Shown here one piece after another: positions 13,997-64,000 of a stretch of 64,000 nucleotides of DNA. How positions within the stretch are numbered: the stretch's first letter is position 1; each line of letters opens with the position of its first letter. The notes beneath the pieces are model-generated. The model saw only the letters and a list, made by a program, of their open reading frames with translations. It searched no databases and was not told the DNA's origin. This DNA is from Pempheris klunzingeri. Taxonomy: Eukaryota > Chordata > Actinopteri > Acropomatiformes > Pempheridae. The translations under genes and the position numbers were made by a program. The DNA lies in contig NC_092017.1 in NCBI RefSeq assembly GCF_042242105.1, forward strand, positions 15,648,432 to 15,712,431, in the 5' to 3' direction.

Positions 13997-14216
13997 GCCC
14001 TCTGATTGGCGGGAAAAAGGGGGTTTTCTCTTTCTGAAAGTAAGGGGTTCTATCATTGGCTGAAAATAAGGGGCTCTCTAATTGGCCAAGAAAAAGAAGC
14101 ATGCTGATTGGCCGAAAGAAATGGGTTTTCTTATTGGTCAAAAGAAAGAAGCACTCTGACTGGCTGTAAGTAAGGAGTTCTATGATTGGGTGAAAGTAAG
14201 AGGCTCTCTGATCATC
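13997..14216. repeat. 26-bp tandem array with an ATTGG (inverted CCAAT) box in most units
   Basis: Perfect ATTGG pentamers begin at 14005, 14055, 14081, 14107, 14133 and 14185, and a one-mismatch ACTGG sits at 14159. From 14055 to 14185 the spacing is exactly 26 bases. A degenerate unit fills the 50-base step before it, and another lies at 14211. Each unit reads roughly CTCTGATTGGC followed by an A/G-rich GAAAGTAAGG half. On the minus strand, the direction of ndufb5, these are CCAAT boxes 300-500 bases upstream of the ndufb5 ATG. NF-Y is the established CCAAT-binding factor; regulation of either flanking gene by this array is inference. An open frame across it at 13887-14225 is a by-product of the repeat. 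Confidence 0.8.
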
Positions 14217-14848: not shown

Positions 14849-16964
14849 TCAGCAGCAGGACGCGTTTTGACTCTTTGCAGACAGTTTCAAAATGTCATTA
14901 GGATATCCTCAGCGATAAATACTCAGCACTGCGCTGCTAATGTGACCAAATACCAGTCTAATCTTTACAGGTAAGAAGCCGTTGCGGTGTGTAAAACATG
15001 ATGTGTAAGCCATATTGAAGCTAACATGTTGATACAGAAGCTAAAGCTGGCTGTGCTCCTCATTTACGGGTTGTGCGGATCGTGTTAAAGAGTCATTATT
15101 TGTGAATAAGATATCACCATCAAGTCCTACATTTACGATGCCTCCTGCAGACGTGTGCTGGGTTAATTTATATACATTGGATTAGAGAGTCGTGAGCCTT
15201 TATGTTGTGAATATGACCGCTTAAGTTTTAAATCAGAAAGTTGTGTTTGCTGTGTTCAAAGACACGAAGTCACCACAGGTAACAGATAACGACTTGAACA
15301 GTGTTTATATGCCTGACCTCCCTACCAGTCAGTTAGAACTGAAGAAGCCTCTTGGATGAGAGGCGAAACGTCTTCTTGTACCTTCAACAAGTCCAGTTGA
15401 CTTTTTGCTACTTTATTTTGCACCCACCAGGGAAAAGTCTCCGCTCGTTGCCCTCTCTTTGTACAGTCCCACCAGCTCTGTGGGTCAGTGTCGAGCCCTG
15501 CACACAACCACCAGCAGGAGAGGGCTGGACGAGTTCTTCGACCTCCATGAGAACTGGGGAGAGACCACCGTGAAGTCAGGTTAAACGCTAAAGCATTAGG
15601 TGTATCACAGCCTAAGCACTATTTTGGCACAAATGTACCCACTAGGCATGATGGCAGTCTTTCACACTTTTTTTGGTTTGTCATAATTTTGTAGCTGCAC
15701 CATGGACTGCCAAACAACTGAGAACAAAGAGCAATGAAGATTTACACAAACTCTGGTAAGCGCTGTTGAGATTACACTGGTCCCTCGGGGTGTATGAACA
15801 TTCATCGGCTGTGTGTGACGCTCTTCTTCTGTCTCAGGTATGTGCTGTTGAAAGAAAAGAACATGCTGCTCACACTTCAGCAGGAAGCCAAAAGGCAAAT
15901 GGTTCAGATGCCGAGTCCAGAAAGATTAAAGAAGGTTGGTACGACGCTCAAGTGACATCTTCACCATCGCTGCAGAAATGGTGAATGACAGCTCATCTTT
16001 TGACAACGCTAAGCGGGATGCAGAGTTTGTACTTGCAGTATTGTGGGTGTTTTTAGTGGTAAAGAGGAGCCCTGGCTGAGGTAAATCTTGCTGTGGTCCT
16101 CCTCCCAGGTTGAGAGGTCAATGACCAGACTTGAGACGGTGGTGACTGAGAGAGAGACTGCACTGCGTCTGCTGCAGACGGGGCAGGAGAAAGGCCGACC
16201 AGGAGCCTGGAGGAGGAATCTATTTGGATACGTCTACTGGTGAGGGCAGAGTCTCCATATACGTTATGTCACACGGACACTTACAGCAGTCGTAATGAAC
16301 ACTTTGAAGCTCCCTGTGGAGTTTTGACCTTTAGTCGAGCTATTTTTCTGAGTGGGTCCCTGTTTTGTTAATCCTGTGCACAGGATGTACAAGCATGTGT
16401 GCACACATGTGACTGATATGATACACATTCCTGCCCGTTTCTCACTATTCCACTTTCAACATGTGGGGGTAACGCACCGAGATAGTGGTCTGGGATGTGG
16501 TTGTAGTACTGCGAAAGGCTTTGGAAAATGAAATGTGGGAATTAGCATCATTCATGTTACACTTGTTTTCTTTCCCTTAGGTATCGATTCAAAGAGTACG
16601 CCATTCCTTGGTACATGAATAAGAGGTACAAGAGAAAGAAGTTCTACACACCCAATTTTGTCCAGCCACACATAAGGTAAGATGTGGCACACATGCAATA
16701 TGAGCCCCTTTTTATGCTGCGTAAAAGATGTTAGTAGATGCAAAATGTATTGTGTGGAGTGTAATCCACAGTTATATTATGCAAAATTCTATTCTTACAA
16801 AAATCGAAATGTTTTTTTTTTCACTCTCTCTTCATTCTTTTCTGTCTTGCAGGCTGCGCATAGAGAAGCATCTTCGAGAGAAGGCCAGGAAAGCCAACCT
16901 CGAGAAGAAAACTCAGGCCAAACTCAAAGAGAAGTTTACTCAAATGAAAGTTCCCGCGTCTTGA
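14837..16964 (+). CDS. mrpl47: Mitochondrial large ribosomal subunit protein uL29m
   Basis: MRPL47 is the mitochondrial uL29 protein of the 39S subunit, in the matrix, where it helps build the peptide exit-tunnel region. Seven exons (14837-14970, 15467-15579, 15695-15755, 15838-15934, 16109-16239, 16581-16676, 16853-16964) join in phase to 744 bases, or 247 residues plus stop; human has about 250. Residues 1 to about 60 are a basic Ser/Arg-rich targeting sequence ending near [14 protein letters not shown]. The uL29 helical core follows at about 65-125 ([20 protein letters not shown]), then the vertebrate motif [20 protein letters not shown] and a lysine-rich coiled tail ending FTQMKVPAS. Every junction is GT-AG. 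The gene is convergent with actl6a. The order ndufb5, mrpl47, actl6a matches human. Confidence 0.97.
15336..15412 (+). repeat. Interspersed repeat fragment in mrpl47 intron 1
   Basis: The fragment contains ACTGAAGAAGCCTCTTGGAT, GAGAGGCGAAACGTCTTC and ACAAGTCCAGTTGAC. I recognise this word order from a very common teleost interspersed repeat. It ends about 55 bases before mrpl47 exon 2. Its class cannot be settled by eye. Confidence 0.55.
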
Positions 16965-18072: not shown

Positions 18073-26865
<8,793 letters not shown>

Positions 26866-27098
26866 CCTTTAAAGTATCTCAGCGGCAAAATGTTTTAATA
26901 TAAGTTAGCAAAGCAGAATCACAACAAAGGAAATGTGTTAGCATGGATCAATGTAACAAAGCGAGCGCCACACTGCGCAGAGGCGCCTGTCCAATCAGAT
27001 TGCAGCACAGCCTCGGTACTTCCGCTTCGGCTGTGACGCAATCATCAAGTGACTTCCATGCTCCTGAGCGGACGTGGCCCTGCGAACTTGATATCAAC
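26866..27098. promoter_or_regulatory. Divergent promoter between actl6a and aldh7a1
   Basis: Only 233 bases separate the actl6a ATG from the donor of the proposed aldh7a1 leader exon. The spacer is CpG-richer than its surroundings. It contains CCAATCAG at 26991-26998, an NRF1-like CTGCGCAGAGGCGCC near 26973, an ETS-like ACTTCCGC near 27018, and TGACGCAATC at 27034-27043, which resembles a C/EBP-ATF composite. No TATA box is seen. The layout fits a classical vertebrate bidirectional promoter. Activity in both directions is inferred. Confidence 0.6.
27050..27098 (+). other. aldh7a1: Proposed noncoding leader exon of aldh7a1
   Basis: The sequence ATATCAAC|GTGAGT gives a strong splice donor at 27099. 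Its natural partner is the acceptor TTTTCTTCCAG ending at 28063, which leaves CACCC before the aldh7a1 ATG at 28069. The left edge (transcription start) is a guess within the divergent promoter. A cDNA spanning 27098 to 28064 would settle it. Confidence 0.5.
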
Positions 27099-28068
27099 GT
27101 GAGTGGTGAAGAACTGTTTATAACTAACATAAACTAACTTTTGAATAATTAAACACTGTCTGTGCAGGCGGTGTAATCGAAGGCTTTGTGTGAGCTCGGT
27201 GATGTTAGCGGGTGTGAACGTCAGGACCTTGAGTCACGGTCGATCAGACTTAACAAGATTGGTGCTGACCACGGCGCTGACGTGCACTATTTGGTGCAAA
27301 CCTAAAGTTAATCTTTTGGTTACATTTTGCGACGCTTTCTTCATGTTTCGTCTTATTTCTGCATCACCCGTAAATTCGAGGTTTCAACAGCCTCGTGCTT
27401 GTCCAAAGTTGGATGAACTGCGCAGGCGCCTAGGTGGATATTTTAGGTAACTTAACTGGTTAAGTTGTGTGTGAAGAGCAGCCCAAAGTTTCATATCACA
27501 GAAAGTATTAACACTTTAGACACTGCAAGCAGTGGATTTTTGCTTGCTTAAAAAATATTGTGTGTAAAATCTTGTGTAACTCAACTAATTGTTTCCACTT
27601 GAAAAAGAAACGTAATGCATTCACAGAGAGGGATTACGACAAAAGGCATCTATTTTTAAACCAGCAGTCTTTGGGCAACACCTGCTGTTTAGTCTATCCT
27701 GCATTGGACCACAGCAAACTTTATTTTAGTTATTTTATTTTGAAATTGAAAGTGTATTCTTTATCCCCTGAAACAGAACTGGGAATGTTGACAGAACTGG
27801 AGCTGAGATAATTAATTGACATAAAATTAATAAACTATACTTTTGATGATCAATTATTTGGACATCTGGTAAGGAAAATGGTGAACATTCTCTGGTTCGG
27901 GATTCTCAAATGTGAGGATTTGAGGACCTTTTTTCTGTTATGTAATTGTGAACCACGCTTATCCTCTCCTTGTGGTACGATTGTTCCGTCAGCAATTATT
28001 TACAAGTATTCTTAAAACAATTCTGAACTTGTGAAATTAATGTTTAACTTGGTTTTCTTCCAGCACCC

Positions 28069-29697
28069 ATGCAGCGCTGCCTCACTCTGACCCTTGCCCG
28101 GCACAACAGGCTCCTTCTGAGAACTACATTTGCATCTGTCCGCTGCCAGCAGTCAGCCGCCATGTCAAATCTCCTCATCAGCCAGCCCAAATACGCTTGG
28201 CTGAAAGAGCTGGGCCTGTCTGAGGACAATCCTGGTGTTTACAACGGGAGCTGGGGAGGCAGCGGGGAGGTTGTCACATCATACTGCCCCGCCAACAATG
28301 AGCCGATCGCCAGAGTAACTCAGGCAACTTTGGCGGAGTATGAAGAAACTGTTCAGAAGACGAGGGAGGCTTGGAAGATGTGGGCAGATGTTCCGGCTCC
28401 CAAGAGAGGGGAGATTGTGAGGCAGATTGGAGATGCACTTAGAAAGAAGATCAAGGTCCTTGGGAGCCTGGTGTCTCTAGAAATGGGCAAAATCTATGTT
28501 GAAGGAGTGGGAGAGGTCCAGGAATACGTTGATGTCTGTGATTATGCTGTTGGCCTGTCTAGAATGATTGGCGGGCCCATCCTGCCTTCAGAAAGACCAG
28601 GCCATGCTCTGATCGAACAGTGGAACCCAGTTGGTCTTGTCGGCATCATCACTGCCTTCAACTTCCCTGTGGCTGTCTACGGCTGGAACAATGCCATCGC
28701 CCTAACCTGTGGCAATGTCTGCCTCTGGAAAGGAGCACCTACCACACCTCTCACGAGTGTCGCGGTTACCAGGATTGTGGCTGAGGTGCTGGAGCAGAAC
28801 AACCTGCCCGGTGCTATCTGCGCCATGACCTGCGGAGGAGCTGATATCGGCACAGCCATGGCAAAGGATGAGCGTGTGGATCTGCTGTCGTTCACTGGCA
28901 GCACCCATGTTGGCAAGATGGTGGCCATGATGGTGCAGGACAGGTTTGGCCGTAAACTGCTGGAGCTCGGGGGAAACAACGCTATCATCGTGTTTGAGGA
29001 TGCAGACCTGAATCTTGTCGTGCCCTCTGCTGTGTTTGCATCTGTGGGAACTGCCGGCCAGCGCTGCACTACAACCAGGAGGCTGATGTTGCACGAGAGT
29101 GTTCACGACACAGTGGTTGAAAGGATTGCCAAGGCCTACAAACAAGTCCGCATTGGAGACCCCTGGGATCCCAGCACCATGTATGGGCCCCTGCACACCA
29201 AACAAGCTGTGGAGCAGTATCTGGCCGCTATTGAGAAGGCCAAGCAGCAGGGTGGCACTCTGGTCTGCGGAGGAAAGGTGATGGACCGCCCTGGAAACTA
29301 TGTGGAGCCCACCATCATCACCGGGCTAGCTCATGACGCACCCATTGTCCATACCGAAACCTTCGTCCCCATACTGTACGTCCTGAAGTTCAAGACAGAA
29401 GAGGAGGCATTTGCCTGGAACAACGAGGTCAAGCAGGGCCTGTCCAGCAGCATCTTCACCAAAGATATGGGTCGGGTTTTCCGCTGGCTGGGGCCCAAAG
29501 GATCCGACTGCGGCATCGTGAATGTCAACATTCCTACAAGCGGTGCTGAGATAGGAGGGGCCTTTGGTGGAGAGAAACACACAGGAGGTGGAAGAGAGTC
29601 AGGCAGTGACTCGTGGAAGCAGTACATGAGGCGTTCAACCTGCACGATTAACTACAGCAAAGATCTTCCTCTGGCCCAGGGAATCAAGTTTGAGTGA
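28069..29697 (+). CDS. aldh7a1: Alpha-aminoadipic semialdehyde dehydrogenase (antiquitin), intronless
   Basis: ALDH7A1 oxidises alpha-aminoadipic semialdehyde in lysine breakdown, and also other aldehydes including betaine aldehyde. One uninterrupted frame encodes 542 residues (human about 539) and is strongly similar along its whole length. Residues 1 to about 31 are a basic mitochondrial targeting peptide; the second Met at residue 32 ([18 protein letters not shown]) could start a cytosolic form. Visible motifs are ITAFNFP (oxyanion Asn198), FTGST at 275-279 (NAD-binding turn), LELGGNN with general base Glu299, and the nucleophile Cys333 in GQRCTT. The C-terminus is GIKFE. All catalytic positions are intact. 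Mammalian ALDH7A1 has many introns and this coding sequence has none, so it looks like a retrogene. The acceptor at 28063 implies one leader intron. No 3' poly-A tract or target-site duplication remains, so insertion would be old. Whether it is the species' only copy cannot be seen here. Confidence 0.97.
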
Positions 29698-30049
29698 AGC
29701 GTTCAGGTTGTTGTTAAAGTGCTCAATGAGCCCAAAAGGACAACACTAAATGATTTAGTGGCAGGGTGTTGCTTTTCTGCCATTAGTCATTTCATTTGTG
29801 CGTTTAGAAAGGTCAGTTTGAATTCTAACAAAATTTGGAATGTTTTTGGATCCGTTTCATTTTTCATGTATCAAAGCTATGTCTGGTTGTTGCATTAGAT
29901 ATTAATCCTGGTTTTGAATTATCAGTTTTGAAATAGTTTTGTGTGAAAGGTCAAATACTGCTTGCTCAAATGCTAGAGTTTTCTATAAGCACTTATAAAG
30001 TGAGTTTGAGCCTAGATAACTGTACCAGATTCTTTATACTGTATGAAAA

Positions 30050-30055
30050 AATAAA
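30050..30055 (+). terminator. aldh7a1 polyadenylation signal
   Basis: AATAAA lies about 350 bases after the aldh7a1 stop codon. Further AATAAA copies lie near 30206 and 30300 and could give longer forms. Confidence 0.6.
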
Positions 30056-30554
30056 TCTTACCTTTATTTTGGAAAAATAATGGGAGTGGATGTCATTCAT
30101 GTGTAGACTAAAATAGCATGGAAGTAGCATTTCAACACAGACTGCTTAACAACCTTTTTTCCAGGATCTTAAAGAACTAATAGTTCACGGTTAATGGAGG
30201 GTGGCAAATAAAACACTGGCTGCATCTCGTTTACAGCGTTATTGTACTGTACTTTGCATCTAGAGCACTCTTTATGATAGTCACACTGTTCTTTCCAGAC
30301 AATAAAACAACAATAAAGGCTTCATGTTGACACATAGACTTGGCCAGCCTATTTTTTGTAAACTTTCATAGGATTAGAAGAAACAACGGTGGTCCTTTTT
30401 AAAGACCAGCGAGACATCAGCATTATTCAGCCATATCAACTGTTTCATTGCAGCCTGGTAACTTTTATGACCCTTTGTTGTCCAATGCATCATCTAAGTA
30501 TCAAAAACCACTTATTTGAACAAACACGTGAATGTCTGTCAAGAATTTTGTGTT

Positions 30555-30612
30555 AAAGATATTAAGATAAGATATTACTTTATCAGTCCCACGACGGGGA
30601 AATTTACAACCC
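30555..30612. repeat. Retrotransposon tail fragment
   Basis: ATTACTTTATCAGTCCCACG followed by GACGGGGAAATTTACA matches, from memory, a word found at the 3' ends of many teleost non-LTR retrotransposon copies. It is a short isolated remnant. Confidence 0.45.
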
Positions 30613-31517
30613 TATTAACACCCTCACATTTCTGGTGCAGCCCTGAAATCCTCTGTCACTGGTTGTATCTTAAAGGCGAAGATGAAATTGTTGCTGCCCT
30701 AATTTTGAGATTGCAACCATTTAAGTCACTTCTACTGGTTACCACAGAGCCTCAATGTATCGTGTGCAATTGGGTTACTGTATGTAAGTATCGTAGACAT
30801 AATAAAGAACATGTAGCCTACATGACTTCTGGGTTCAAAAGACAAATATATATATAAAACTACACTACAGTAGACCATTAGCAAAAGAGGCAATTAGTGA
30901 TAATATATACGGCAAGTAATTAGCACCCATTTATTGTATTTTAGCCAATGGACTTTACAACCATTCTCTGAAGAGAAGAAATTATTCCAAAATGTATTGG
31001 CAATAGGAGTATTGCTTAGTGGTATCGCTGTAGTGGCAGGAGGGCACAATCCTAATGTTTGTACTGTTTGTGATGAAAAGACTCAGTTGTACATTATCAG
31101 AAAGGAGCCTCTGGTCATTAATGAGTTTAGATAACGGGTAAGAAACAGTCATGTAGACTTTTCACAGGAGACATTTTGATTAGTCAAAGCACACTTATTA
31201 CCAAGAGTGGGTCAAAATGCACAATACTAGGAACCTGAGACGGTTTTCAGCCATCATTATTTTCATTATTTTAGATTATTGAACATTTTATTTTAATGTT
31301 TATTTTTCTCTCCCGTGAGAAGTCAAAATGTCTTGAAAAAGGCCAGTTGTGTCAGATTTCAGTGTCAGAGGAGGTTCACACATATATTGCTTTATATCAG
31401 ATCAAATTCATTTAAAAACTACCCGGTGAGTGTGTATATGGGTTTTATGTCAGGACTTATTTGACATTTATTTAAAATGTCCTTTAAAGAAATAGTTTCA
31501 GTAACCTCATCTTGGAT

Positions 31518-43849: not shown

Positions 43850-50673
<6,824 letters not shown>

Positions 50674-62710: not shown

Positions 62711-64000
62711 CTGCGAGGCCATAACACACAAGTTACTGTGACAGCTATAGGGGCTGCTGCTGGATAGGGTGCATGAACTGCACGCTACCAGGGACAAAGA
62801 ATGGACAAGATAGACACCTGCTACTTTAACTGAGGAGAAGAACAGAAATGGAAACACAGGGATGAAAATGACAGCAGCAGTGTGTGTATCTTGGGTCCTA
62901 CAGCCCACATGTTGTAAAGTCACAGTAATGTGTTGGTGAAACCTCAGCTAAATCATAAAAACATATACATACAAGAATGCAAGTGAAAGACAATTAAAAA
63001 AAAAAAACACTATTACATATAAAAGTAGGAATATGTGTCATTTTGGCTCAAGGCAGGTTATGCCTGAGGCAACGTTCTTATTTGATCACTTATAGTTGAA
63101 ATCATTAGGATTTTCATGAAATTAAAACTATGGTCAGCATTAACGCTAACTCATCAGGTTGCTTATGAGATTGTGGAAAAAGGTCAATTATTGACCGACT
63201 TTTAAAACAACAGTTGGTTTGGCTGCACTGTAAACAAATACCTGTGCTGCTTTACAATTTTATTTCTAATAAAGTAGTTGCTCAACAAGTGTTTCCTGCA
63301 CGGACCCTGACAGAAAGCCGCCCACCTCTGAGCCTGGTTCTGTTCGAGGTTTCTTCCCAAGTTTTTCCTGCCACTGTTGCCTAATATAATATCTGATGCT
63401 GCTCATGTGAGGATTCTTGAATCATTAATTTTGAATTCCTGAAGCATTGGGTCTCTCTCTTAATTAGAGAGTTTGGTCTAGACCTGCTCTTTATGGAAAG
63501 TGTCCTGAGATAACGCTGTTATGAATTGGCAGTATATAAACAAAGATTGATTGACTGATTGATTGATTAATTGCTCCCAGAATTCTGGGAAGTGTGGGAT
63601 CAAACACCAAGTTACCATGGGACGGAAATCTAAAGGATTATGATAATTTCATCCCATTATGGACACAATTCAATTCCTGCTAGTTAAAAATCAAAAAAAT
63701 CTCAACAAGATGCAAGAAACACAGAGACACAAAGAAAACTGAACAATCAAATTAGTCACAACAGAGGAAAACCAAAGTGCAATGAAAACAAACAGATGCC
63801 CTCGCCCAAGTGAATCTAGACTTCAGCAATGAAGACGCAGGTTGATGGAAAACGCACAGTGATTGGACTAGAAGGCTCTGGGTCTGCCGGCTTGACACTG
63901 AACCACTAAGCCAGGTTCAAGTAGTTGACTGCTCAGGTTAATAGTTATGATTACGAGGAGGAAACTAGTTGCTTCTTGTTTTATTCAGTTTCTTTCACCA
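62711..64000. other. mfn1 intronic sequence
   Basis: No further mfn1 exon was recognised to the right of the acceptor at 62711. The stretch holds an A-rich run near 62995-63007 and an interspersed repeat tail at 63296-63568. Confidence 0.5.
63296..63568. repeat. Interspersed retroelement-type tail ending in GATT repeats
   Basis: TCTGAGCCTGGTTCTGTTCG, AGGTTTCTTCCCAAG, TTTTTCCTGCCACTGTTGCC and GGCAGTATATAAACAAAGAT follow the order of a 3' tail that I know from a highly abundant teleost retroelement-like repeat. It ends in (GATT)n at about 63546-63568, consistent with a short simple-repeat tail. It lies in an mfn1 intron. Confidence 0.6.

Follow-up and report, generated by a model that had tools for sequence, protein, structure and literature searches.

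Orphan retrogenes, intronless genes whose parent is absent from the genome, are already known as a kind. The closest precedent is amphioxus SYCP1. As PMC5803294 reports it, SYCP1 has a single coding exon derived from a multi-exon ancestor, and the parent was not found in the genome; the gene lies divergent to CHIC, is proposed there to have taken over the bidirectional promoter of that neighbour, and has gained a new 5'UTR exon-intron structure. Intronless retrogenes have also been fixed in ray-finned fishes and put to use there: teleost rhodopsin and Opn4m2 are the examples given in PMC10339062.

The locus described here lies in a window of 64,000 bases from the fish Pempheris klunzingeri (contig NC_092017.1). 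Its aldh7a1 frame, at 28069..29697 on the plus strand, is very probably an orphan retrogene that replaced its parent and now stands beside actl6a. The proposed history has several steps. A spliced aldh7a1 mRNA would have been copied into DNA by reverse transcription and have landed between actl6a and gnb4, head-to-head with actl6a; the intron-bearing parent would have been lost later; and the intronless copy would now supply antiquitin, a lysine-catabolism enzyme. Transcription would probably start at the CpG-rich promoter of actl6a, on its plus-strand side, and a short non-coding leader would be spliced to an acceptor 5 bases before the aldh7a1 ATG. The exact leader exon is the least certain part of this account.

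The aldh7a1 frame and its product

The frame opens with an ATG at 28069, its stop codon ends at 29697, and its 542 codons form a single exon without an internal stop. Judged by homology, this is a full-length ALDH7A1 (antiquitin, alpha-aminoadipic semialdehyde dehydrogenase), nearer antiquitin than other aldehyde dehydrogenases. The product consists of one Aldedh domain (Pfam, E 3.2e-134). Among the best 60 of 255 PDB matches, the closest relative is seabream antiquitin (2JG7), followed by the human enzyme; antiquitins score 999-1155 bits, the next non-animal homologue 708, and other ALDH families at most 233. The product contains the catalytic motifs FNFP (residue 197), FTGST (275), LLELGGNNA (297), AGQRCT (329), and GGAFGG (496). 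The preliminary description had claimed an intronless ALDH7A1 frame of this length with all of its motifs, and that claim is confirmed. Seabream antiquitin is reported to share 84% identity with the human protein (PMC4086958).

The start context of Met1, CACCCATGC, is weak, and that of a second in-frame ATG (Met32, 28162..28164, plus strand), GCCGCCATGT, is good. From these contexts, it is possible that starts at both Met1 and Met32 give rise to mitochondrial and cytosolic forms.

Human ALDH7A1 is described as having 18 exons (PMC3963937), with exon junctions at c.192, c.1008, and c.1200 (PMC8047191). With a three-residue offset based on the human start, these junctions map to 28269, 29085, and 29277, all within unbroken coding sequence. 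The zebrafish gene was targeted by CRISPR in exon 4, and so has at least four exons (PMC5650160); the counterpart of that target in the window encodes VPAPKRG. Both ALDH7A1 genes therefore carry introns, and the coding region at 28069-29697 lacks them where its ancestor had them; retroposition is the presumed cause. Thus the human gene is multi-exonic, as had been stated at the outset, and the zebrafish gene weakens the objection foreseen then, that teleosts might share an ancestral single-exon aldh7a1.

The proposed leader exon and its promoter

The divergent neighbour is actl6a, a multi-exon gene whose coding region (18076..26865, minus strand; ATG at 26865..26863) was recognised by alignment to the human protein, by Pfam, and by a PDB search that named one piece. 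A CpG-rich zone (26500..27400) spans the start of actl6a as well as the proposed leader. Within it, CpG observed/expected is 1.08 (26500-26865), 0.89 (26866-27098), and 1.12 (27099-27400); it is low, 0.39, at 27400-28063, and the window mean is 0.43. Promoter-like DNA therefore covers both of these features, and not the region beside the aldh7a1 ATG. A bidirectional promoter shared by the two genes, from which aldh7a1 would presumably be expressed, is consistent with this zone and with usable splice signals.

The predicted leader exon has its 3' part at 27058..27098 on the plus strand. It would be followed by a predicted 5'UTR intron of 965 bases (27099..28063, plus strand; AAC/GTGAGT ... TTCCAG/CACCC). 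The donor, with C at -1, begins at 27099, and 233 bases separate 27098 from the actl6a ATG. The acceptor, CTTCCAG/CACCC-ATG, has 28064 as its first exon base, 5 bases before the aldh7a1 ATG. Both sites were scored with a simple weight matrix and were compared with 22 introns aligned in the window (8 from gnb4 and 14 from actl6a, of which 3 look misplaced). The donor scores 3.40, above 11 of the 22 reference donors; the acceptor scores 3.57, above 5 of the 22 acceptors. Both sites thus lie where the preliminary description had placed them, but they are ordinary rather than strong.

Within 26866-27400 the donor ranks first of the four that score above 1, and the acceptor ranks first of the seven that score above 0 in 26950-28069. 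Donors as good occur at 1.03 per kb per strand, so that chance alone would give 0.24 in 233 bases; for acceptors as good the density is 2.25, which would give 0.05 over the 24 bases that precede an ATG. Capture of a leader exon is plausible but unproven: the CpG zone covers it and the best acceptor abuts the ATG; neither site is exceptional, and a higher-scoring donor is nearby. We lean towards some predicted leader that begins in the CpG zone and joins 28064. That this leader would end at the 27098 donor is a tentative prediction, for which the chances look slightly below even.

Alternatively, aldh7a1 might lack a spliced leader and use its own promoter just upstream of 28069, or have a leader with another donor. 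This is a sizeable, if minority, possibility. Nine plus-strand donors score above 1 in 26866-28060, and two outscore 27099: 27912 (3.75) and 27869 (CTG/GTAAGG), which is nearer the aldh7a1 ATG and reaches 6.16. The proposed leader also contains an upstream ATG, at 27058; if transcribed and spliced as proposed, this would give a frame of 66 codons that overlaps the aldh7a1 start. The low CpG value of 27400-28063 beside the CpG-rich zone argues the other way, as does an acceptor adjoining the ATG that is the best in its interval.

Search for a parental gene and its locus

A leader spliced from the actl6a promoter would be one part of the preferred reading; replacement of the parent is the other. 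The host assembly (645,938,514 bases in 439 contigs, of completeness not stated) was the sole assembly examined. A protein search with antiquitin, in which 31 of 31 candidates were scored, gave seven matches: one at 100% identity, and six short pieces at 30-42%. A DNA search with aldh7a1 at E<=1 returned a single match, aldh7a1 itself. Neither search, then, found a second antiquitin in this assembly. As a control, a gnb4 protein query (119 of 150 candidates scored) recovered seven of its own nine coding exons, the smallest of 24 residues, and missed two exons of 19 and 13 codons; it also found multi-piece paralogues elsewhere, spread over no fewer than five contigs (C2, C8, C11, C14, and C16). 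Searches with GRAMD2B and LMNB1 likewise recovered multi-exon genes. Because these controls succeeded where the antiquitin searches found nothing more, the parent's absence is well supported for this one assembly. Replacement of the original gene, at first suggested only as something that may have happened, is now backed by both searches and by a control gene recovered exon by exon.

The parental neighbourhood was sought from the human arrangement. On human chromosome 5, GRAMD3, ALDH7A1, PHAX, and LMNB1 are reported as successive genes, and a topological domain boundary separates the two in the middle, ALDH7A1 and PHAX (PMC4424952). In the fish, gramd2b-like GRAM exons occur on contigs C19 and C7. 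Next to gramd2b on C7, the first gene recognised is slc12a2, which is about 10.6 kb away from the closest gramd2b piece; on C19 lmnb1 lies at 10.846 Mb and has a cortexin gene upstream. Searched by tblastn at E<=1, the 160 kb (16 stretches) around both gramd2b loci gave no convincing match to aldh7a1 or phax. Nor did the 10 kb that lie upstream of lmnb1, where the lowest E values were 0.91 (aldh7a1) and 1.8 (phax). Near gramd2b, phax gave nothing at E<=1, and with filters off only low-complexity matches (best E 0.046). A candidate fossil of the parent, L030:5462-5545 (28 residues, 39% identity, E 0.13, or 0.065 with other settings), lies between gramd2b exons by eye and was taken as chance. 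Since the ancestral block has been rearranged, no single empty parental site is identifiable.

An intron-containing parent might coexist with the retrocopy and simply be missing from the assembly, so that nothing was replaced. The assembly's 439 contigs and unstated completeness leave room for this, as does a parental locus not identified as an empty site; we nevertheless think it improbable, because neither the protein nor the DNA search turned up another copy, while the same tool recovered multi-exon genes. The only antiquitin copy found is intact, intron-free, and beside a foreign promoter; an mRNA copy therefore appears to have displaced the original gene, and the parent was probably lost.

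The present location is a conserved block. The downstream neighbour, gnb4 (43850..50670, plus strand, nine coding exons), was recognised by alignment to the human protein and by Pfam. Identities to human proteins are 389/431 for actl6a and 315/340 for gnb4. Beyond these two genes lie mfn1 and ndufb5. (A tandem array of period 26 or 52 bases, at 14034-14212, is close to the ndufb5 start.) Pfam assigned the expected family to six of nine neighbour frames at E<=0.001 (actin-like, G-beta, mitofusin, and NDUFB5 pieces); at this threshold the frames at 62114-62299, 16725-16961, and 15360-15581 had no family match. We take actl6a, gnb4, mfn1, and ndufb5 to be the human 3q26 set, with the same order here apart from aldh7a1; the argument from conserved order presumes this human order of gnb4 and actl6a. 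The location of aldh7a1 is new relative to human, with actl6a and gnb4 as flanks and not GRAMD3, PHAX, and LMNB1. Human ALDH7A1 does lie on another chromosome than the actl6a block, as had been claimed. The claim that an mRNA copy was inserted into a syntenic block is also supported, by an intact intronless frame amid conserved neighbours.

Hallmarks of insertion were not found. The first AATAAA past the stop codon, by sequence scan, is at 30050..30055 (plus strand). Runs of at least seven A are absent from 29698-31200, so that there is no poly(A) tract, and no target-site duplication stands above chance: the longest word common to the flanks has 10 bases, and 45 of 200 shuffles gave 10 or more. 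Neither hallmark is required of an old retrogene, because both decay with age. Their absence is as expected of an old insertion, and would also be expected if there had been none. Loss of introns in place, by recombination of a gene already at the actl6a-gnb4 site with its own cDNA, would leave the same intron absence without hallmarks, but is highly improbable, since human ALDH7A1 sits with GRAMD3, PHAX, and LMNB1 and the order of gnb4 and actl6a is kept here with aldh7a1 between them.

phax and comparison with known retrogenes

A second gene of the ancestral neighbourhood, phax, appears to share the intronless fate of aldh7a1, and this is the most surprising point. Human PHAX is a multi-exon gene. 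In the fish, phax is an uninterrupted 405-codon frame (L041:808-2025; contig C22, about 19.073-19.075 Mb). Its residues 9-386 align without a frame break to residues 5-383 of the 394-residue PHAX chain 8pnt_C, and the single PF10258 match in the assembly falls inside this frame. Upstream, on the opposite strand, lies a gene resembling mitochondrial-processing-peptidase beta, with M16 domains. One M16 frame has MPP-beta as its best PDB match, narrowly ahead of complex III core 1; for a second frame, other M16 proteins rank highest and MPP-beta takes third and fourth place. The M16 domains and the MPP-beta matches are the reasons for naming this neighbour pmpcb, a probable assignment. (The region of this gene also holds a reverse-transcriptase-like frame at L042:2280-2750, minus strand, whose RVT_1 score of 25.9 bits is below the Pfam cut-off of 29.6.)

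Both aldh7a1 and phax are divergent from a neighbour (actl6a and the pmpcb-like gene, respectively), and each has a usable acceptor just before its ATG. That of phax is at L041:801, 7 bases before the ATG, and scores 3.37; over 300 bases, L041:602 scores higher (4.68). A CpG-rich stretch at L041:420-660 (CpG 0.82) may serve phax itself, rather than the promoter of the pmpcb-like neighbour. For the two genes together we suggest, with some hesitation and at a little under even chances, a paired replacement: aldh7a1 (C6) and phax (C22), on different chromosomes, would survive only as intronless frames, after one locus breakdown and two mRNA rescues.

The two promoters have a 24-base stretch in common (27034-27057 and L041:21-44), 21/24 identical and in the same orientation to the genes. 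Simple shuffles reached 21 in 0 of 500 and 20 in 2. With up to two mismatches, the pattern occurs only at those two places in the assembly (the reversed control gave one match), a circular count because the pattern was built from those two copies. Possibly the stretch is made up of common transcription-factor sites. The argument that it proves descent of both promoters from one ancestor was rejected: a head-to-head pair needs opposite orientations, and the same orientation is seen. Separately, 63299-63408 and L042:7209-7328, at the phax locus, have about 120 bases in common at 81% identity, probably a dispersed repeat.

Cases in which a retrogene has replaced a conserved metabolic gene are seldom documented, and that of aldh7a1 is easily dated and tested across fishes. 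Literature searches, with most subscription papers outside their reach, found no description of a fish aldh7a1 retrogene. Because zebrafish, the model for pyridoxine-dependent epilepsy, has a multi-exon gene, regulation of aldh7a1 in fish may differ between models. If phax was also replaced, the pair offers a natural experiment on neighbouring genes that survive loss of their locus and gain a new promoter and 5'UTR intron.

The enzyme itself is familiar: seabream antiquitin, known from 2JG7, is the same enzyme, with 495/510 residues identical over the aligned stretch and 15 that differ. The gene resembles teleost rhodopsin and Opn4m2 as an intronless retrogene of a ray-finned fish. Teleosts, however, are reported to retain intron-containing rhodopsin and Opn4 genes, whereas no intron-containing aldh7a1 was found in this assembly; sturgeon and paddlefish, which according to the same source lost intron-containing rhodopsin, come closer (PMC10339062). 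The resemblance to amphioxus SYCP1 extends to the single coding exon, the parent not found, and the divergent neighbour; for aldh7a1, the counterpart of the new 5'UTR structure would be one predicted leader and one intron. In contrast to SYCP1, aldh7a1 encodes a conserved metabolic enzyme, and the pattern recurs in phax, its neighbour at the ancestral locus.
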